From Cinnamomum chago (taxonomy: Eukaryota > Streptophyta > Magnoliopsida > Laurales > Lauraceae): DNA of 64,000 nt. A program made the translations under genes and the position numbers. Shown piece by piece: positions 4,873 through 22,609 of this stretch (position 1 is its first letter; every line of letters begins with the position of its first letter). The notes beneath the pieces were generated by a model that worked only from the letters and a program-made list of their open reading frames with translations, had not been told where the DNA came from and did not search any database. Location of the stretch: assembly GCA_038049695.1 (NCBI GenBank), contig CP142451.1, forward strand, positions 72,353,501 to 72,417,500. The letters are read 5' to 3'.

Positions 4873-6175
4873 ATGTCTGGAGGCGAGGCACCCCTTGAGG
4901 CGATAGCGATCGGCGACCAGTCCGTCCACGAGCGTCACTTTGAGAGGTTTCTTCAGGCTTTCCTTGCTGCTCAGGAGGCCCAGGTGACTGCCCATCAGCA
5001 ACAGACAGAGGACTTTACGCAGTTTCAGGCACATGTCCTAGACGTGATCAATAGGGTGGCTCAGCCCGGTTTCGCAGCAGCACTTGTTCGGGATGCAGAC
5101 TCGAACGTTATCTTCGAGAAGTTCCTCAAGAAGGAACCACCAGAGTTCACGGGCGCATTAGTGGCTGACGACTGGATTGTGCGGATGGAGAAGATTTTTA
5201 GAGTCTTCGAGTGCACCGGCCAGCAGAGGGTGCAACTAGCTGCCTATATGTTTAGAGGAGTCGCTGAGGATTGGTGGAGGACTATTCAGCGTCATTACGA
5301 GGCGATCGGGGACGAGATTGCTTGGACGGCTTTCAAGGCAGATTTCCTCCGGAAGTTCATCCCATCGCATGTTAGAGACCGCAAGCTACGGGAGTTCCAG
5401 GCACTGGTGCGGGGCAGTATGACTGTCTACCAGTACGAGGTCCGCTTCACCCAGCTTTCTCTCTTCGCAGAGGCTCTAGTCACGCCTGAGTCGGAGAGGA
5501 TCCGGCGGTTCGTTGAGGGACTGAGGGATGATATCCAGCTGAACATGTCCTGTATCGAGATTCACACCTATGAGGAGGCTTTGAGGAGAGCCTACTGGGC
5601 AGAAGTCAGCGGATAGAGACTGGACAGCAGCAGAGACGGATCCGAGCCGCTCTGGCCAGACCACAGCCCGTGCCCCTACGACAGCAACAGCCATTCCAGA
5701 GGCAGAGGCCGGCAGGTCAGGCAGGGCAGTATCAGCATCAGCAGCAGCGTGGGCCCAGAGTGTACTACTATTGTTGAGAGTCAAGGCACATCTCCAGATT
5801 TTTTCCACTCCGAGGAGGGCAGCCTCAGATGCTTCAGCTTCCAGTACCTCCTAGAGCTCCAGTTCCCGCTCCACCTGTTAAACGGATTGCTCCGGCACCC
5901 CAGCCACCACAGCAGCAGTACCGTGCTCAGCAGCAGCAGGTACGTGGACCCCAGCAGCCTAGAGGGCAGCCTTACCAGCGAAGACGACACCGGAGACCCC
6001 ATGGCCAGCAGCACCAGCAGCAGAGACCCCAGGCTGTGGGTCGAGCTTTCGCGCTCACTCACGAGGACGCAGAGGCCACATGCAACGTGGTGGAAGGTAC
6101 TCTTTCTATCAGTGATCATCTTGTTAGAGTATTGCTTGATCCGAGAGCGACACATTTGTATGTGTCGTCAGCTTT
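4873..6175 (+). pseudogene. Gag and start of protease of element B, degraded
   Basis: The first 247 codons (4873-5616) are an intact Tekay-type Gag: a Gln-rich N-terminus, then FLKKEPPEFTGA, an AEDWWR core and a REFQALVRGSMTVYQYEVRF segment. A frameshift/stop at 5614-5616 ends the frame. Further on, the zinc-knuckle region near 5760-5810 reads YYC-stop-ESRHISRFFP, so its Cys/His ligands are lost. The protease start is readable at about 6020-6175 with VLLDPRATHLYVSSAF. The expected D-[ST]-G triad is DPR here, so the protease would be inactive. Element C interrupts the gene after SSAF, and it resumes at 14184. Confidence 0.85.
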
Positions 6176-7866
6176 TGAAAGTCCACGGGATCCTAACCCT
6201 AGAGGGGGGGGTGAATAGGGTGTCCTATAAAAATGACCAATTAAAACCAATTTTGATTAATTAAAGAAAACTAGTCATATAACATGATTTACCAGACAAG
6301 ATGCGGAAGCTAAGAAAACAAGCACCACAAGCAAACACCACAACTCCAAGGTTTATAGTGGTTCGGCCTCAATGCCTACATCCACTACCGGCTTGTGATC
6401 CCGGATTTCCACTATTTATGCTTTTTCAAAGGCTAAGCAATAACCTATACAATGTTGTTTTTCTAAGGCTCAACAACAACCTTTACAAGTTGCTTTTCGA
6501 GGCTAAGCAAAAACCTTTACAAGTTGCTTTTCAAGGCTAAGCAAAAACCTTTACAAGTTGCTTTTCAAGGCTAAGCAAAAACCTTTACAAGTTGGATTTT
6601 CTCTAAGAAGGTGTCTCTTCAAGAACACTCTAAGAGATACAATTTTAGCTCAAATGAAATGCCTCTAAATAGGCTAATGTGAAAGTGCAATTCAAATAAC
6701 AAACATACACTAAAACAAACTAAGGTGTGTGTGAACAAGTGTATGCAAGTTGTACTTCAATCAATTTCAAAGGTGAAGCTCTTAATTGTATGCTTGATGC
6801 AATTTAAAATCAAAGCTTGGAAATAGATGATTGAAGATAAAACTAATCACATAAAAGATTCAAACAACTTTGAGGAATTAAGATGACAAGTTGTATGAAA
6901 GTTAAAATCTAAGAATGCATGTGATTTAGTTAAGATAGTTTGCAAACCCATCTAATTTACCAAGGGTGCTTTTGAGTTTGCTAAACATCTCTTTTTAAGC
7001 TAGAAATCATGCATAGAAGGTAATACAAAGATTTGTGCATGCATTGATTTCAATCTTAATGAAAATCAAAATGAAAAGAATGAAATACCTTTTTAAAACT
7101 CTAACATTTGATTTCCAAATAAGCTTCTAGCCTTCTCAAGTTAATCTCCTTTCTTTTTCTTCAATCTCCTCTCAAAAGTTCATTTTTCAAGCCCCTAAAA
7201 GAATGGGAAAAGAAAGGTTTTTAAACAAGAAAAGTGTCTAACGGCTAGTTTACCCGGTTAACCCCATAGCAGGCCGGTTAACCGGGCAAACTCAACGGTC
7301 ATAAAAAGAGCCGTTGAGATTTTGGGTCATTCTGCACTGTGGCCGGTTAACCGGCCTACCATGGCCGGTTGACCGGCTACACTGCCAGAGAACCCTTTTT
7401 GGCCAAAAATCCTGCACAATGCATATTTGAAGATTTCCCTTGGAAGAGATCTTTGGACCTGAAAGACAAGCTTAAAAACATGTTTTATGATATTCTAAGA
7501 TATTAAAAACATGAGACACCCAAGGTCTAAAAAGATTCAAAATGTTTAAGACCAAAGGTTAGCTTGAATTCTAAAAACTCCTTTTTCAAAAACAATGCAT
7601 ACAAATGTGATAATGAAGAGATGAATGCATGCAAAGATCAAACCTAATTTGTCAAGATGATTTTCCAAGTAAGACACAAGGAAATAGGTTCTCAAAGGAG
7701 TTTGGGTTCTAAATCATGCATGAAGTAAATTCATTTCAAAAGCATGTGTATATGCATGAGAGAAATCAAGATCCAAGAAGTCTACATTTAAGAGCTCAAG
7801 TGTGTGATCATGTCAAGGTGAAAGTGTGTGCATCCATCAACCATTGCAACACTCAAGGGCCTAACA
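6176..7866 (-). repeat. 3' LTR of element C
   Basis: 1691 bp. On the minus strand it starts TGTTAGGCCCTTGAG and ends GGACTTTCA. It carries three copies of a ~34-bp unit (AAGGCTAAGCAAAAACC type, about 6490-6595) where the 5' LTR has one, and lacks an 11-bp stretch. These account for the 57-bp length difference. GGTTAACC-centred palindromes lie at 7253-7377. Confidence 0.93.
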
Positions 7867-7877
7867 ATCTCCCCCTT
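7867..7877 (-). other. Polypurine tract of element C
   Basis: On the minus strand AAAGGGGGAGAT abuts the 3' LTR start. Its position and strand fix the orientation of the element. Confidence 0.85.
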
Positions 7878-8003
7878 TGCAATTTGATGGCAACTCCTAT
7901 GATCTCACACTCAATGGACTCTGGATCTTCTAGAAGTCTCTGACTTTGAAATCTCTTGAATAAATCTGATTTTGACGAAAGCTTGTGACAATATTCAAGC
8001 AGA

Positions 8004-8650: not shown

Positions 8651-9856
8651 CTAAGAAGAATCTGGAGGAGAGGGGGTCATGACATCATCATGTCGCCTGC
8701 AGCTCTTGGCGACGCTGGTCATAAACTTCAAGGCCTTTTTCATAAACCCTGAAGACTCTTGTCGATACTCAAGAAACTCTGTCCTCAAGGTAGTAACCTC
8801 GGTCCTCACGGTGGAAACCTCCTGCTCTACGGAAGACAAACGCCCCTCTAGAGATGTCAAGCGAGCACGAACAGATGGTCGAGGAGGTGGCTGAGGCTTA
8901 TCTGGCTGAGGCTGTTGCTGATCTCCAACCGGTGAATCTGCAGCCTCAAGCTCTGCGTCTCCTTCTGCAACTGGATTGGCCCGAGAAGGGGCCTGTGAAG
9001 GAGGAGGGGGAAGCTTCATCAAGTTGATATTGGTCTTGTTGAAGACTGTTGTGCGCTCGGGTCTCTCTGTTTCAGGAGGAGTCACACCAAGAAAGCGGGC
9101 AATCTGAGTGATAAGAAAGCCGAAAGGAGCAGCACAGGGCTGACTACCAGAGATCACACGAATGATATGTCGCATGATAATGGAGGGAAGGCACATGGGC
9201 ACCCTTGTGATCACATTGTGCAAAAGATTGACCATGTAGGGTGTGACTTCAGTCCTATTCCCTTTCCTAGGATAAATTGAGTAAGTGAAAATGTTATGAA
9301 TAATCCTAAGAGAGGGGACCATGAAAGAAGCTGGAAGATAGTTCTTGACCGACCACTCAGCAGGATAGCCACAGATGGAAGTGGTGACAGACTCTCTCAC
9401 ATCTAGAGGAAGAACATCTGAAACTATCTTGGGTCCATTAGACATAGGAATCCCCAAGATGGAAGAGATCGTGGAAACGGTCACTGTCTCCTCACCATGT
9501 ACGAATCGAATGGTGAAAGAATCTTCAGATACGGCTCTAATGGATTCGTATAAGCCATAAACAGAGGAAGCATAGGTCTTGCCACTCCAAGTGAGAATCC
9601 TTTCCCAGCCTATAGCTTCTAAAATGGGAGAAATTTGGTAGTCAACTAGGTCCTCTAAGACACAGAATTTTTCAACAATGATCCCTTTACTCCTAAATGA
9701 TTTCACAGGTGTAAAAGGAGAACGAAGGGGGTTGAAAAGAATTTCACGAGGAGGGATTGGTTCTGGAGAAGAGGAGGAAGATCTACGGGAAGTGGAAGCT
9801 TGGTAGGTTTTGGATTTCTTGAGGGGCCTCCTAGCAGTTTGCTTGGTCCTAGCCAT
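8651..9856 (-). CDS. Histone-H3-tailed retrotransposon protein (plant transposon-protein domain, coiled coil)
   Basis: 401 codons. I chose the Met at 9856 because it is the first ATG in the frame; the open sequence upstream has none, and GC follows the ATG. Met is followed by Ala, so Met would normally be removed. That exposes ARTKQTAR, identical to histone H3 residues 1-8 including Lys4, then Arg-Pro instead of Lys9-Ser10. A basic, Ser-rich stretch to about residue 35 resembles a flexible tail. Residues ~55-250 resemble the plant 'putative transposon protein' domain common in retrotransposon ORFs (FVHGEETVTVSTISSILGIP). A Pro/Gln-rich linker and a heptad-like coiled coil (LEGRLSSVEQEVSTVRTEV, ~335-370) follow. 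It lies downstream of the Gag-like ORF, where Sireviruses have an env-like gene. Function is unknown; binding to H3K4 readers or writers is inference. Confidence 0.85.
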   Translation of the reverse strand: MARTKQTARRPLKKSKTYQASTSRRSSSSSPEPIPPREILFNPLRSPFTPVKSFRSKGIIVEKFCVLEDLVDYQISPILEAIGWERILTWSGKTYASSVYGLYESIRAVSEDSFTIRFVHGEETVTVSTISSILGIPMSNGPKIVSDVLPLDVRESVTTSICGYPAEWSVKNYLPASFMVPSLRIIHNIFTYSIYPRKGNRTEVTPYMVNLLHNVITRVPMCLPSIIMRHIIRVISGSQPCAAPFGFLITQIARFLGVTPPETERPERTTVFNKTNINLMKLPPPPSQAPSRANPVAEGDAELEAADSPVGDQQQPQPDKPQPPPRPSVRARLTSLEGRLSSVEQEVSTVRTEVTTLRTEFLEYRQESSGFMKKALKFMTSVAKSCRRHDDVMTPSPPDSS

Positions 9857-10548
9857 TTGCAAATAGAAGGTAAAAGATAGCAGGAAAAGGGACCAAGGAA
9901 GAAAAGGCAAAACAGCCCACTTGACAGCCTGTAAACAGTGTGAAAACACACTAAAAACAGTCACAAGAGGAAGAGAGTAGAAGGCTGAAATGGATAGGGA
10001 ATACTGCCAGAGGATGCGGTCTTTCTGAGCACAAGAGGTTACTGCTGCAGAGTCCAACCAGAGACTGAGTTTGAGTGAAAAAACTGGTTCAGACAAATTT
10101 ACAAACAGTTGGTGTGCAATGGAGAGAGCTGGCTGCAACACAACATAAGGCAGCAGGAGGAAATGCCCAAACGGCTACACAAGATACACAGAGAAGAAGG
10201 AAACCATAAAACAAAGAGAAAAGAAAACAAAAACCACACAAAACAGCAACAAAGAAACCACGGAATGGAGAAGCAGCAGGCGGCAGGGAGCACAGAGGCA
10301 GAGATGGAATGGGCGTCAGCGCAGACGAGGTGGAGAAGATGAACACGAGAGAGAGAGAAAAACGAAACCGAGAGAAGAAGGGAATGGAAGAACGAGGAAG
10401 AAGGAACGAGGAAGAAAAGAAGAGCAGGAGAAGAGCAGCAAGCAGGAGAGTCTCAGTCGGTTGGCAGAGAAAAGAAAAAAAAAAAAAAAACTGTTCTGAT
10501 GAAACAGAACAAAATGGCACACAGTCGTTTAAGTGACTGTCGAGCAGG

Positions 10549-10585
10549 GCCGGTTAACCGGTCCACTAAGGCCGGTTGACCGGGC
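10549..10585 (-). repeat. GGTTAACC-type palindromes upstream of the H3-tailed ORF
   Basis: GCCGGTTAACCGGTC and GCCGGTTGACCGGGC repeat the motif of the element C LTR inside its internal region, about 0.7 kb upstream of the H3-tailed ORF. The surrounding 9857-11079 interval is A/G-rich on the plus strand, contains a run of 18 A at about 10467-10485, and shows no other supported gene. Confidence 0.75.
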
Positions 10586-11079
10586 AGACTGAGTCAGTTG
10601 AGAAAACTGACCAGTCCAGGAGGGAAAAACAGGGGATAAGAAATGTTCAATCTGAAACACTAAACCCTGATTCCCAACAATCATACAAGGTTAAAAACTT
10701 TTAGAAAAGACATTTTCAAAAATCAATTCTAAAATATTTCCTTTGAAATTAAGAAAATTTGTATGATTAAGCTAGTTTTTCAAAACCATTTAAATTTGAC
10801 ACAATCAATAGTTTGACTAAGAAATCACTCAAGAAAAAACATTTTGAAAAACAAATCAATTGAATTAGAAGATACAACAAATTAAGGCTTTTTCAACTCA
10901 ATTGATCATAAATCATGCATATAATCAAATAGCTCCATTATAAAATCACAATGCACAATCATCAAACAAAACTCAATAACATGAGTCTAAAAACCTAAAG
11001 AAATACTAAGAGAGTAGAACCAAGACCAACTAAGCATATGACTATGAGAAAAAGGTTGGTCTCATCTATCTAAGTAACC

Positions 11080-12432
11080 TTAGTAATTTTCTAAAGGTCT
11101 AACCTTAGGTATCCATCTAAGGTCTTGGGCTTTTGAGATTAATTTGGAAATTCCACCAACTAAGAGAGATGAAGATTTAATTTTCTTAGACTTGTCATCA
11201 ATTCTTTGAGATGTAACTAATTTAGGTTGATGATTAGTCTTAGTAGGTTGGTGTTTCTTTTTCTTTTTATTCTTTTCATTTCTTTGAGCTTTTCCTCCTT
11301 CTTTTTGTCTTTTGAATTTCAATTTCAACATTTCAACCTTTTTCAATAATTCTTTCATTTCTAAGGTTAAAGGAGGGAATGAATGAGGATTCTTTTTGAT
11401 AGATTTCTTTTTGACATCCATCTTGGATGACTCTTTTTGAATAGATTTTCCTTGTTTGAAATTCTTAGAGTCTATCTTGGAATTCAATGTCTTACCCTTC
11501 TTAGAATTTGGTTTAACTTTCTTTGGTTCGAAGATGGGTTTATACATATGATTTTTCCTCAATTTGCACTCAAATTTGAAATGTCCTTCTTTTCCACAAT
11601 AATGACATTTTGTCTTGGACATTTGAGAGATAGTGCTAGAGAAAGAGGACTCACCTTTCACAAAGGTGTTGGTGAATTTAGGGTCATGTGTAGTATGCTT
11701 ATTAAAACCAAGACCCGTCCTATCTCCATGAGGTTTACCCAATTTGAATAATTTTTCAAGTCTCTCTTCACTTTGGATAAACTTGCACTCATACTTTTGT
11801 TTATATCCTTCAAGTTGAGTGACTTTGGTTATAAGGATTGAATTTTCATTTTTGACTTTAGAAAGTTCATTTTCAATTTCCTTATATTTGATTAGCTCTT
11901 CATGGGCAAGTTTTAATTCAAGTTGTAGTTCATTAACAACATTAGGTCCAAGCTCTTGGGTTTTTAACTTACTTTTAATCAACTTGGATTCTAAATTGTT
12001 AAAATCTTTGTCTTGCCTTTTTATATGATCTTTTAAATTTAAATTTTCTTTTTCAAGATCATTATAACTTATCTTAATTTCCTTTAGTTCATCTTTGATA
12101 TTGGATAAGTTATTTAATGAGATCATGAACTTAGAGTCTAGACATTTTATCACTTCTTCTTTCTCTCTAAGCTCATCTTTTGAAGAGACTAGTTCTTTGT
12201 TTAGTCTTTTTGATTCTTCTCTTAGTTTCTTATTTTTCTTGTTAAGCTCTAGAGATAGAGTGTATAATTCTTCATAGGCTTGTTGGACATCCTCTTCATC
12301 ATAATTTTCTTCTTCATTTAAATCACATTGAGATTCTTTTAATTGAATATTAGAATCTCCAATAGATGGAAGAGTGAGGGATCTAGAAGAATCTACACAA
12401 TAGCCTAAACAATCTAGCTTAGTGGACTCCAT
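11080..12432 (-). CDS. Gag-like protein of element C: long coiled coil plus CCHC zinc knuckle
   Basis: 450 codons, starting at the ATG at 12432, which has G at -3 and +4. The open frame just upstream has no ATG. An acidic N-terminus (LNEEENYDEEDVQQAYEEL) leads into a Lys/Glu/Leu-rich coiled coil of about 170 residues. A zinc knuckle follows at about residues 276-289 (CHYCGKEGHFKFEC, C-X2-C-X4-H-X4-C), then a very Lys-rich tail. This matches the C-terminal half of Copia/Sirevirus Gag and lacks the usual N-terminal Gag core. It probably binds the element RNA and multimerises. It starts ~100 nt after the primer binding site and is intact. Confidence 0.82.
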   Translation of the reverse strand: MESTKLDCLGYCVDSSRSLTLPSIGDSNIQLKESQCDLNEEENYDEEDVQQAYEELYTLSLELNKKNKKLREESKRLNKELVSSKDELREKEEVIKCLDSKFMISLNNLSNIKDELKEIKISYNDLEKENLNLKDHIKRQDKDFNNLESKLIKSKLKTQELGPNVVNELQLELKLAHEELIKYKEIENELSKVKNENSILITKVTQLEGYKQKYECKFIQSEERLEKLFKLGKPHGDRTGLGFNKHTTHDPKFTNTFVKGESSFSSTISQMSKTKCHYCGKEGHFKFECKLRKNHMYKPIFEPKKVKPNSKKGKTLNSKIDSKNFKQGKSIQKESSKMDVKKKSIKKNPHSFPPLTLEMKELLKKVEMLKLKFKRQKEGGKAQRNEKNKKKKKHQPTKTNHQPKLVTSQRIDDKSKKIKSSSLLVGGISKLISKAQDLRWIPKVRPLENY

Positions 12433-12535: not shown

Positions 12536-12547
12536 GCTCTGATACCA
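12536..12547 (-). other. Primer binding site of element C (tRNA-Met type)
   Basis: On the minus strand TGGTATCAGAGC begins two bases after the 5' LTR end at 12550. It is identical to the site of element B. Confidence 0.9.
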
Positions 12548-12549
12548 AT

Positions 12550-14183
12550 TGAAAGTCCACGGGATCCTAACCCTAGAGGGGGGGGTGAATAGGGTGTCCT
12601 ATAAAAATGACCAATTAAAACCAATTTTGATTAATTAAAGAAAACTAGTCATATAACATGATTTACCAGACAAGATGCGGAAGCTAAGAAAACAAGCACC
12701 ACAAGCAAACACCACAACTCCAAGGTTTATAGTGGTTCGGCCTCAATGCCTACATCCACTACCGGCTTGTGATCCAATCACCCCACCGGATTTCCACTAT
12801 TTATGCTTTTTCAAAGGCTAAGCAATAACCTATACAATGTTGTTTTTCTAAGGCTCAACAACAACCTTTACAAGTTGCTTGTCGAGGCTAAGCAAAAACC
12901 TTTACAAGTTGGATTTTCTCTAAGAAGGTGTCTCTTCAAGAACACTCTAAGAGATACAATTTTAGCTCAAATGAAATGCCTCTAAATAGGCTAATGTGAA
13001 AGTGCAATTCAAATAACAAACATACACTAAAACAAACTAAGGTGTGTGTGAACAAGTGTATGCAAGTTGTACTTCAATCAATTTCAAAGGTGAAGCTCTT
13101 AATTGTATGCTTGATGCAATTTAAAATCAAAGCTTGGAAATAGATGATTGAAGATAAAACTAATCACATAAAAGATTCAAACAACTTTGAGGAATTAAGA
13201 TGACAAGTTGTATGAAAGTTAAAATCTAAGAATGCATGTGATTTAGTTAAGATAGTTTGCAAACCCATCTAATTTACCAAGGGTGCTTTTGAGTTTGCTA
13301 AACATCTCTTTTTAAGCTAGAAATCATGCATAGAAGGTAATACAAAGATTTGTGCATGCATTGATTTCAATCTTAATGAAAATCAAAATGAAAAGAATGA
13401 AATACCTTTTTAAAACTCTAACATTTGATTTCCAAATAAGCTTCTAGCCTTCTCAAGTTAATCTCCTTTCTTTTTCTTCAATCTCCTCTCAAAAGTTCAT
13501 TTTTCAAGCCCCTAAAAGAATGGGAAAAGAAAGGTTTTTAAACAAGAAAAGTGTCTAACGGCTAGTTTACCCGGTTAACCCCATAGCAGGCCGGTTAACC
13601 GGGCAAACTCAACGGTCATAAAAAGAGCCGTTGAGATTTTGGGTCATTCTGCACTGTGGCCGGTTAACCGGCCTACCATGGCCGGTTGACCGGCTACACT
13701 GCCAGAGAACCCTTTTTGGCCAAAAATCCTGCACAATGCATATTTGAAGATTTCCCTTGGAAGAGATCTTTGGACCTGAAAGACAAGCTTAAAAACATGT
13801 TTTATGATATTCTAAGATATTAAAAACATGAGACACCCAAGGTCTAAAAAGATTCAAAATGTTTAAGACCAAAGGTTAGCTTGAATTCTAAAAACTCCTT
13901 TTTCAAAAACAATGCATACAAATGTGATAATGAAGAGATGAATGCATGCAAAGATCAAACCTAATTTGTCAAGATGATTTTCCAAGTAAGACACAAGGAA
14001 ATAGGTTCTCAAAGGAGTTTGGGTTCTAAATCATGCATGAAGTAAATTCATTTCAAAAGCATGTGTATATGCATGAGAGAAATCAAGATCCAAGAAGTCT
14101 ACATTTAAGAGCTCAAGTGTGTGATCATGTCAAGGTGAAAGTGTGTGCATCCATCAACCATTGCAACACTCAAGGGCCTAACA
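12550..14183 (-). repeat. 5' LTR of element C
   Basis: 1634 bp, essentially identical to 6176-7866 apart from the 34-bp repeat number and an 11-bp indel. Palindromes GGCCGGTTAACCGG recur at about 13570-13690. The target duplication GCTTT follows at 14184-14188. Confidence 0.93.
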
Positions 14184-17100
14184 GCTTTTGCTTTAGTCCT
14201 TAGAGGGGTAGGAGAGGCTATGCCTTGTACATTAGTTGTGTCCACTCCGATGGGTAGGAGTGTGGTGTGTCAGACTTACCACCCCAGATGCCGAGTGCAG
14301 ATTGGGGAGTGCATTTTACTTGCAGATCTGATCATGCTACCCATGCATGACTTCGACGTCATTTTGGGGATGAATTGGTTGGCGAGATATCGGGCGGTGA
14401 TGGATTGCTTCGAGAAGACAGTCAGACTCTCCATCAACGGATCAGATGACACGATCGAGTTCGTAGGCGAGAGGAAGCGGCCCAGCACAAGAGTGATTTC
14501 GGCACTAAAGGCTGAGAGATTGATGAAGTCAGGTTGTGAAGGCTATATCGCGTTCATCTCGGAGGATAAGCAGACCAAGGGAGTAGAGGAGATCCCAGTT
14601 GTTCGTGAGTTCCCCGATGTGTTTCCCGACGAGATCCCGGGATTACCACCTGTCAGAGAGATCGACTTCACCATCGAGCTTGCACCAGGCATAACACCGA
14701 TTTCCAGAGCTCCTTACCGCATGGCTCCGACAGAGCTACGAGAGTTGAAGACCCAGTTGGAGGAGTTGCTAGACAAAGGCTTCATCAGGCCGAGTGTGTC
14801 ACCGTGGGGCGCACCAGTACTCTTTGTGAAGAAGAAGGATGGATCGATGAGGATGTGCATCGACTATCGGCAACTGAACCAGGCAACAGTGAAGAACAAG
14901 TATCCTCTTCCTCGGATCGACGAGCTCTTCGACCAGCTTCAGGGTGCGCAGTACTTTTCAAAGATAGACTTGAGATCGGGATACCATCAGCTGCGAGTCA
15001 GAGAGCAGGATGTGCAGAAGACAGCATTTCGATCACGCTATGGCCACTCCGAGTTCCTTGTGATGCCGTTCGGATTGACGAATGCACCAGCAGTGTCCAT
15101 GTCCCTGATGAACAAGATCTTCGCTCCGTACCTCAACAGCTTCACAGTTGTGTTCATCGACGATGTGTTGGTCTATTCCAAGTCTAGAGAGGAGCACGAG
15201 CAGCATTTGAGGACGTCTCTACAGTTGTTGCGCGATAACCAGTTGTACTCGAAGCTTAGCAAGTTCGAGTTTTGGTTGGAACAAGTAGTCTTCCTCAGGC
15301 ATATCATCTCCAAGGACGGGTTAGTAGTGGACCCAGCGAAGATAGAAGCAGTGATGAATCGGGCGAGATCGAAGAACGCCACGGAGATTCAGAGTTTTCT
15401 CGGCTTAGCGCGCTACTATCGCAGATTCGTCAAGAGCTTCTCCACGATTTCAGCCCCGTTGACCAAGTTGACGCGGAAGGATATACCATTCGTTTGGACC
15501 GATGCTTGCGAGAACAGCTTTCAAGAGCTGAAGGAGAGACTGACAACAACACCGATCTTGTCTTTGCCTACCGGTAACGGTGGATTCGTAGTCTTCACCG
15601 ACGCTTCGGGGACCGGTCTAGGTTGTGTTTTGAAGCAGGAAGGGAAGGTCATTGCCTACGGATCACGCCAGCTGAAAGAGCACGAGAAGAAGTACGCTAC
15701 TCACGACCTGGAGCTAGCAGCGGTCGTTTTTGCGTTGAAGTTGTGGCGACACTACCTTTATGTGGAGAAATTCGAAGTGCATTCAGATCATCGTAGTTTG
15801 CAGTACCTGTTCACTCAAAACGACCTCAACAATCAGCAGAGAAGATGGATGGAATACATCAAGGATTACGACTTCCCTATCAAATACCATTCGGGTAAGG
15901 CGAATGTCGTAGCGGATGCTCTGAGCAGGAAGACCGCCCTCGTCAGTTTTCTAGCAGCGGAGGGTGTGTGGACCGGCGACTTCAGCAGTTTAGACGTTCA
16001 GTTTCAGCCGCTCAGCGAGAGAGTCTTGCTTGCGACCATGTCCGCATGGGAACCAGAGTTAGTAGGAAAGGTCAAGGACAGTCAACACAACGATCCAAAG
16101 CTTGTCAGAGTGATCGAGCAGATTGACCAGAGGCTAGAATCCAGATTGATTGGTGGAGTGCTCTACTATCAGGACCGATTGTGCGTGCCTGATATTCAGG
16201 AGCTGAAGGATGAGATCCTCGCAGATGCACATCATAGCAGATACTCGATTCACCCAGGCAGCACCAAGATGTACCAGAACCTGAGGAGTTACTACTGGTG
16301 GAACAACATGAAGAAGGAGATAGCTTGCTATGTCTCCAGGTGTTTGACGTGTCAGCAGATCAAGGTCGAACACCAGAAGCCGCCAGGACTATTTCACTAG
16401 CTCGACATACCCCACTGGAAGTGGGAGCATATCACCATGGACTTCATCGCAGGACTTCCAGCTACCAGGAGACGCCACGACGGCATTTGGGTGATTGTGG
16501 ATCAGCTGACTAAGTCAGCTCACTTCTTGCCAGTCTCGGTGAAGGCAGGACTCAACGTCCTTGCTAAGCTGTATGTGGACAGGATCGTTTCTTTGCACGG
16601 GGTTCCAGCTTCGATTGTTTCGGATAGAGACCCGTGTTTTACTTCTCATTTCCGGGAGAGTCTACAGCAGGCTTTGGGCACCAAGTTGAGTTTCAGCATC
16701 GCTTATCATCATCAGACAGACGGGCAGACCGAGCGTACTAACCAGACACTGGAGGACACGTTGAGAGCTTGTGTCTTGGACTACAAGGAGAATTGGGAGG
16801 ATTCCTTGCCGCTTTGCGAGTTTGCCTACAACAACAACTACCATTCGAGCATCAAGATGGAACCGTTCGAGGCCCTATATGGAAGGAGACGCAAGACCCC
16901 AGTCTGTTGGGAAGAAGTTGGTGTCAGGAGTTTCCATGGACCATCCATAGTCAGCGATACCAGCGAGAAGGTTCGGCAAATAGTCGAGAACCTGAAGGTC
17001 AGTCGCAGCCAACAGAAGAGCTATGCAGATAACCGGCGCAGACCTCTCGAGTTTCAGAAGGGAGACAAGGTTTTCTTGAAGGTTTCCCCAGCCAGAGGTA

Positions 17101-17516
17101 CCCTTAGGTTTGGCGAGAAGGGTAAGTTAGCTCGGAGATACGTCGGATCGTTCGAGATCAGGTCGAGGATCGGAGACGTTGCTTACAAGCTTCAGCTACC
17201 GCCAAAGCTATCAAGAGTGCACGAAGTGTTTCACGTCTCTATGCTGAAGAAGTACATGGAGGATCCCACGCATGTTCTATTTTACCAGCGAGACACTTCA
17301 TACGTCGCCAGGCCAGTTGCGATCATGAACACCAAGGAGCAGGTGCTCCGGACCCGAACCATCCATTGGGTGAAGGTCCAATGGGAGCATCACACTCCAT
17401 TAGAGGCTACGTGGGAGCTACGGGACCAAGTGGAGAATGACTATCCACATCTTCTACCTCAGGTATGTTCTAACTTTGATTTTTACATTTGGGGACCAAA
17501 TGTTTTAAAGGAGTGA
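14184..17516 (+). pseudogene. Pol of element B: protease end, RT, RNase H, integrase, chromodomain
   Basis: The frame resumes after element C and is open to a single TAG at 16398-16400, then open again to 17516. RT carries [28 protein letters not shown] and the catalytic FIDDVLVYS. RNase H carries [10 protein letters not shown] and ends VVADALSRK. Integrase has an HHCC finger (HPGSTKMY...CLTCQQIK) and the D,D,E core (DFIAGLP, VSDRDP, ...QTERTNQTLE). The C-terminus, RTRTIHWVKVQWEHHTPLEATWEL, is shortened here to its key features: a basic start, WV-VQW, and EATWE, as in Tekay chromodomains. Homologues have Gln-Pro where this copy has His-stop, so the TAG is a nonsense mutation. ATG-like codons before 14184 belong to element C. 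Confidence 0.9.
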
Positions 17517-21876: not shown

Positions 21877-21955
21877 AATGTACCTAAATGATAAGTCAAT
21901 GAAAGAAGGATTTTATGGAAGACGTGTCCCTTGTCTCTTTCAAATTGTGAATCAA

Positions 21956-22390
21956 GGCTCCGATCGTAGGACCAGCCTCCTCGAGTTCGGTCATTGGACC
22001 AGCTCTCAAGGCTTTGGTCACAGGACCAGTCTCTTCGAGTTCGGTCATTGGGCCAACTCCCAAGGCTCCGGTCGTAGGACCAGCCTCCTCGAGTTCGGTC
22101 ATTGGACCAGCTCTCAAGGCTTCGGTCACAGGACCAGCCTCTTCGAGTTCGGTCGTTGGGCCAACTCCCAAGGCTCCGGTCGTAAGACCAGTCTCCTTGA
22201 GTTTGGTCGTTGGGCCAACTCCCAAGGCTCCGGTCGTAGGACCAGCCTCCTCGAGTTCAGTCGTTGGGCCAACTCCCAAGGCTCCGGTCGTAGGACCAGC
22301 CTCCTCGAGTTAGGTCGTTGGCCAACTCCCAAGGCTCTGGTCGTAGGACCAGCCTCCTCGAGTTCAGTTGTTGGACCAACTCCTCAGCCC
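21956..22390 (+). repeat. 54-bp tandem repeats downstream of pol, element A
   Basis: About eight units of a 54-bp sequence (GGCTCCGGTCGTAGGACCAG plus 34 bp) lie just after pol. Because 54 is a multiple of three, several frames on both strands stay open without coding meaning. Arrays in the 3' region are known in Tat-lineage elements and can seed satellites. Confidence 0.9.
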
Positions 22391-22609
22391 CTTGGGTCGA
22401 GAACGGAATCAGCTGTTTTATTTCATTCACAATCTGCGGAATTCGGTCCACCTTTAAACTCGGCCGAACCCCCCGAGTTATCAAAATTGGCAATACGGCC
22501 CCAGCTCGATTATGGAAACTTACCTCCAGCAGCAAGGTCGCACCCCAGGGTATGAGTCCAAGCTAATTACAAGGTCTTCTAATGAGGCGGTTCCCTCAGA
22601 AGCATTTTG

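Follow-up and report, generated by a model that had tools for sequence, protein, structure and literature searches.

A family of LTR retrotransposon copies in Cinnamomum chago encodes an accessory protein, ORF2, that begins with a likeness of the histone H3 N-terminus, and the codon changes among its relatives indicate that this H3-like N-terminus has very probably been under selection. Going further, the lineage may have evolved a true mimic of the H3 N-terminus, selected at the positions contacted by H3K4 readers and writers, matching H3 exactly up to and including Arg8 in two clades that include recently multiplying subfamilies, and hijacking or blocking the H3K4 (or H3T3) machinery so as to escape silencing or to lodge in chromatin; it would perhaps be the first such mimic on a transposable element. 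This fuller reading is offered tentatively, as one somewhat more apt to fail in some part than to hold as a whole.

The copy analysed first-hand lies in a 64,000-nt stretch of DNA, here called the window (assembly GCA_038049695.1, contig CP142451.1, positions 72,353,501-72,417,500 of the forward strand). ORF2 (window positions 8651..9856; 401 codons plus stop) is read on the minus strand from 9856 to 8651, and its N-terminal sequence is MARTKQTARRPLKKSKTYQASTSRRSSSSSPEP. A sequence-only reading of the window had described an intact 401-codon ORF starting with MARTKQTARR and carrying Arg-Pro at the positions of H3 Lys9-Ser10; both statements are borne out, and to them can be added the strand, which that reading had left unnamed. 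Without its Met, the protein of the window copy is identical to histone H3 over residues 1-8 (ARTKQTAR, codons 2-9, 9830..9853, minus strand), a feature defined by the sequence together with its conservation in the family. Since ARTKQTAR directly follows the start Met, which is presumably removed, the free N-terminus that a histone mimic needs would be available. The tip is followed by a basic, Ser-rich tail with a putative NLS-like stretch, KKSK (residues 13-16, 9809..9820, minus strand), by a Transposase_32-like domain (residues 82-258, 9083..9613, minus strand) and, near the C-terminus, by a long helix that is probably a coiled coil (residues 329-393, 8678..8872, minus strand). The order of a transposon-protein domain and then a coiled coil had been proposed from the sequence, and it agrees with a match to Pfam PF20167, Transposase_32 (E 3.2e-10, profile positions 3-176 of 177), which at 40.6 bits falls below the curated cut-off of 45, and with a single-sequence AlphaFold2 model that is poor overall (mean pLDDT 43.9) and most confident in helix 329-393, where it is consistent with a coiled coil. 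The histone family is absent from the three Pfam matches of ORF2, the likeness to H3 being limited to the first residues, with no histone fold. A profile search of solved structures returned six weak matches, the best to an S-layer protein (E 0.058), with H3-like PDB chains at E 1.1, and no relatives of ORF2 were found in the protein database, searched with the single sequence and then with an alignment, or in viral contigs.

ORF2 belongs, as an accessory ORF, to a young plant LTR retrotransposon of the non-autonomous kind, whose other ORF, ORF1, is gag-like. The element, which is read on the minus strand, has the hallmarks of its class: two LTRs with TG...CA ends (5′ LTR, 1634 bp, 12550..14183; 3′ LTR, 1691 bp, 6176..7866), a target site duplication, GCTTT, on both sides (6171..6175 and 14184..14188), a primer binding site, TGGTATCAGAGC (12536..12547), which we take to be of the initiator tRNA-Met type, and a polypurine tract, AAAGGGGGAGAT, that adjoins the 3′ LTR (7867..7878). 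ORF1 (11080..12432) comprises 450 amino acids from its ATG and contains a CCHC zinc knuckle (zf-CCHC, 21.1 bits against a cut-off of 20.8); the spacer and leader ahead of ORF2 occupy 9857..11079. Between the LTRs, 1,622 of 1,623 aligned bases match and one does not, with a further 79 columns of gaps; at literature substitution rates the element would presumably be some 20,000-45,000 years old. Together with the open ORF1 and ORF2 of the window copy, this sustains the earlier claim of a young element with both ORFs intact. Inside the element ORF1 and ORF2 are the only ORFs of at least 150 amino acids, and at related loci inspection by eye of the 1,500 nt ahead of ORF2 showed no pol-like ORF; with no pol seen, the element is regarded as non-autonomous. 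It is inserted between ORFs that by eye resemble gag and pol of the Ty3 type (window positions 4873-5616 and 14145-17516). A palindrome-rich repeat, GGCCGGTTAACCGG, occurs in both LTRs (7341-7384 and 13658-13701) and, in a version 84% alike, in the spacer that precedes ORF2 (10548-10591); it is possibly a shared regulatory stretch. Elsewhere in the window, positions 21878-22555 hold an ORF built from repeated units such as TSLLEFGHWTSSQGFGHR.

The motif is widespread in the one plant genome searched (1.06 Gb, 14 contigs). MARTKQTA[RS] has 120 exact genomic places, against 0 for the reversed pattern; when the first 30 of these were fetched as loci, 25 encoded ORF2 and the five without a match to ORF2 were histone H3 genes or H3-like copies. 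The pattern MARTKQT-x-[RS]-[RS], which canonical H3 is unable to match because it has Lys9, was found at 325 places, again against 0 for the reversed pattern, these being matches to the pattern alone, whatever follows in the ORF. A chance likeness confined to one copy was rejected on the basis of these 120 and 325 matches and the empty reversed controls. The MARTK start is absent from 30 loci with other Transposase_32 matches, of which 16 start in the MAP or MAS manner, five begin with another Met and nine have no Met in the open stretch. As a separate observation, four H3-like places that match residues 1-115 with internal stops (C2:6815027, C4:868312, C3:121041323 and C10:70886550) are perhaps H3 pseudogenes.

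For the relatives of ORF2, a protein search with a query that included the tail scored 103 of 1,715 candidates. The N-terminal codons could be read in all 103, and four loci with a frame shifted at the start (L084, L126, L137 and L138) were excluded, leaving 99. In these the residues of H3 are retained as follows: Ala1 in 97, Arg2 in 88, Thr3 and Lys4 in all 99, Gln5 in 93, Thr6 in 92, Ala7 in 22, Arg8 in 94 and Lys9 in one. ARTKQT is exact in 76 relatives and Thr3 and Lys4 are invariant, and the proposal survives the search for copies lacking the motif or starting elsewhere that the sequence-only reading had put forward against itself. That reading had also equated residues 1-8 with H3 1-8, which is right for the window copy; family-wide, the match to H3 covers residues 1-6 and Arg8, and identity through residue 8 is not a family trait, being found in two subclades only (ARTKQTAR exact in 19 of 99). 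Residue 7 is W in 32 relatives, F in 26, A in 22, S in 17, T in one and a stop in one. The 11 misses at Arg2 are CAC (3), CAA (3), TGA (2), TGC, AGC and AAA (one each), of which nine look like what CpG decay of a CGN codon would yield. Beyond the tip, Lys13 is kept in 99 of 99, Lys16 in 97 and Lys14 in 68.

Selection on the tip was gauged in a sample of 48 loci (the eight top-ranked and the 40 lowest-ranked relatives), reduced to 25 representatives with less than 90% nucleotide identity. Conservation of the first codons across copies, a check suggested beforehand, came out clearly, with a pN/pS of 0.106 for ARTKQT and a free residue 7 at 1.0; the ratio was 0.283 for residues 11-17, 0.301 for 18-33 and 0.233 for 61-281. 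In the same representatives pS was 0.55 in the motif against 0.51 in the domain, and because synonymous divergence is as high in the motif as in the domain, a cis-acting DNA site was rejected as the cause of the conservation; low pN/pS accompanied by synonymous change points to the peptide rather than the DNA as the object of selection. The tip is tightly constrained, though other parts are as well: 43 of 378 six-codon windows of ORF2 have an equal or lower pN/pS. It lies within about the tighter ninth of the ORF2 protein and is not its tightest part, the constraint being weaker than in some core windows.

The history of residue 7 was followed in a tree of 70 loci from whose alignment the tail had been left out. 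Ala7 occurs in two clades separated by supported rows with W, F and S, which takes at least three changes, and the same three changes came out of a protein tree that included 21 distant Transposase_32 rows; that tree is rooted on long branches, and the position of its root is uncertain. With the root outside both Ala7 clades, Ala7, and hence identity to H3 through Arg8, would have arisen twice. Most Ala7 rows had been picked by motif, which biases the make-up of the clades; the intervening W, F and S rows had not been so picked. Very short tips (<0.015) were found in 8 of 22 motif-found Ala7 loci and in none of the other 40 loci (Fisher p 9e-5), a comparison that excludes L001-L008, found by their likeness to the window, and in which one of the eight, L029, belongs to the window's subfamily. 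As the two samples were drawn differently, this excess is a hint only.

As far as examined, no Met of the open stretch precedes the one at which ORF2 would start, and the leader in front of it is rich in C and T and poor in ATG. No upstream Met was found in the 12 codons preceding the start at the 73 loci with an ORF2 match, and at 19 loci the closest upstream ATG in any frame is at least 108 nt away; a start codon elsewhere was rejected on these grounds, splicing into the tail aside. In the last 800 nt before ORF2, ATGs fall below the mean of shuffled sequences at 18 of the 19 loci, and at 13 the count is reached by at most 5% of shuffles; L037 has more ATGs than the mean of its shuffles, and L034 and L038 have ordinary numbers. 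The leader of the window copy has two ATGs in its last 800 nt, against 12 in the roughly 400 nt before those, and C and T make up 73% of its last 600 nt. Such a leader fits translation from a transcript that would begin within it.

What the tip does may be read from which positions are kept. A permutation array gave the motif [LAPIGV]-[VPLRKI]-[TVIALYS]-K-X-X-X-[GRKP]-[RK] for MLL4, positions +1 to +3 being permissive and R or K wanted at +5 (PMC12551112), and in simulations of the ING3 PHD finger with H3K4me3 the hydrogen bonds listed are with Arg2, K4me3, Thr6 and Arg8 (PMC5000080). By analogy with these human proteins, and on the assumption that their plant counterparts are similar, the kept positions 1-6 and 8 and the free position 7 of ORF2 fit the contacts of H3K4 readers and writers. 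The MLL4 motif is fitted by the tails of 84 of the 99 relatives, and residue 7 is both free in the ORF2 family and permissive in the array. Gln5 and Thr6 are kept in spite of being permissive for MLL4, which alone leaves them unexplained, and this favours readers over the MLL4 writer. The suggestion made from the sequence, that the element mimics H3 for its K4 readers, is in this way partly upheld: the pattern of kept and free residues suits H3K4 readers and writers, but Lys9 is absent, and with Lys9 in one of 99 relatives Lys9 readers are unlikely targets.

In the mechanism that we propose, ORF2 would be translated and lose its Met, so as to present A1-R2-T3-K4-Q5-T6-x-R8 as a selected mimic of the H3 N-terminus. 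The tip would then find its binding partners among host readers or modifiers of Lys4 on the free H3 tip, such as PHD-type readers or COMPASS/ATX-type methyltransferases, perhaps with avid contact through coiled-coil multimers, and the ORF2 protein, presumably nuclear, would be tied to host chromatin factors or would occupy them, with possible effects on silencing or insertion. That the tip works by engaging readers or writers of the H3 tip is the best explanation, and we consider its chances about even. Against it, N-terminal acetylation of the Ala could spoil reader binding, and Lys13 and Lys16 vary as little as Lys4, as would be expected of an NLS.

The latter point belongs to the main rival, by which the N-terminus is an ordinary basic tail for nuclear localisation or nucleic-acid binding, the whole 33-residue tail is selected and H3 is resembled only by coincidence, through a short Ala-Arg-Thr-Lys-Gln-Thr start. 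Besides the near-invariance of Lys13 (99/99) and Lys16 (97/99), it can draw on the conservation of the Ser-rich part (pN/pS 0.30 for residues 18-33) and on the basic MAP- or MAS-type start, for example MAPKKRP or MASKKRS, at 16 of the 30 other Transposase_32 loci, which indicates that short basic tails are usual in the Transposase_32 family. A nuclear signal, however, needs no fixed Ala1, Thr3, Gln5 and Thr6 beside a free residue 7, and residues 2-7 are tighter (0.106) than the basic block 11-17 (0.283); we judge this rival unlikely, if still to be taken seriously. Common descent is a far weaker contender. The window copy is very young and near-identical copies exist, which would suit a tip shared by recent descent with nothing selected; against this, representatives below 90% identity combine a pS of 0.55 with the low pN/pS in ARTKQT, Ala1 is written with four codons, Arg2 with five and Thr3 with four, and residue 7 has drifted freely. 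We regard that explanation as very improbable.

Another possibility is that the tip imitates H3 for the mitotic Thr3 pathway, with phosphorylation of a Haspin type, docking on a Survivin-like BIR domain and retention of the protein or its cargo on chromosomes through division. The human protein Sgo1 does so with a four-residue H3-like N-terminus, AKER, which docks on Survivin in the manner of the H3 tail (PMC9253516), and in ORF2 Ala1 is kept in 97 and Thr3 and Lys4 in all of the 99 relatives. The position of the copies also speaks for it: the median distance from the chromosome middle is 0.14 of chromosome length for the 103 relatives versus 0.28 for 150 other Transposase_32 matches (Mann-Whitney p 2e-17), the middle being taken by length and not by centromere. 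Yet the mid-chromosome bias has other explanations, and Sgo1 needs only AKER whereas ORF2 also keeps Gln5, Thr6 and Arg8; we think the mitotic pathway improbable. For the engagement of H3K4 readers or writers, the same bias speaks against H3K4me3 steering elements to gene-rich arms, unless insertions there are lost.

Two further features of the distribution may be recorded. Contig C7 (64 Mb) holds one of the 103 relatives against 6.2 expected by length (binomial p 0.02) and no MARTKQTA[RS] place among the 100 matches listed, yet 11 of the 150 other Transposase_32 matches lie there. Tandem copies about 6.1-6.3 kb apart occur at C4:78.06-78.08 Mb (three, L003-L005), C10:21.36-21.38 Mb (four) and C9:34.24-34.25 Mb (three), a spacing close to one element minus one LTR, as expected from recombination between LTRs.

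Examples of histone mimicry have already been described in viruses, in a PRC2 inhibitor and in a centromere protein, and the tip of ORF2 would add a transposable element to them. If the reading is true, the selfish DNA at which chromatin silencing is chiefly aimed has responded by evolving part of the histone code for itself, and the conserved tip suggests that such elements may exploit the proteins that read it. The hundreds of natural variants that this single genome contains, free at residue 7 and otherwise fixed, would also amount to a mutagenesis experiment done by nature, of use in the study of H3-tip readers. A transposon-encoded mimic of the H3 tail was not found in the literature searched, which comprised titles and the starts of abstracts and had most subscription papers outside its scope; within it there was no occurrence of MARTKQTARR, MARTKQTWRR, MARTKQTSRR, MARTKQTFRR or ARTKQTARRP, and MARTKQTAR alongside retrotransposon led to a histone-mark study only, with no transposon mimic.

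Among known systems, the closest in architecture are the additional ORFs (aORFs) carried by LTR retrotransposons of plants, in particular the Athila aORF of sunflower, which has Transposase_32 (PMC11728184; PMC7264820). Like these, ORF2 is an accessory ORF in an LTR element and combines a Transposase_32-like domain with a tail that is basic and probably nuclear. Unlike them as described in those papers, it has a histone-like N-terminus (the word "histone" does not occur in the main text of PMC11728184), and its element differs from theirs in having no pol. Short histone look-alikes are also carried by viral mimics such as the hepatitis delta antigen (PMC6972770) and by EZHIP (PMC12713659), in proteins that engage chromatin factors; these are viral or mammalian and have a named partner or target (BAZ2B and PRC2, respectively), in contrast to ORF2 of a plant retrotransposon. 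Sgo1 comes nearest to ORF2 in its design: it is not a histone, yet the residues just behind its Met copy the H3 tip and engage a domain that binds the H3 tail (PMC9253516). It differs in being a human cellular protein with experimentally established binding, and of its four residues Ala1 alone equals the corresponding residue of H3 1-4.
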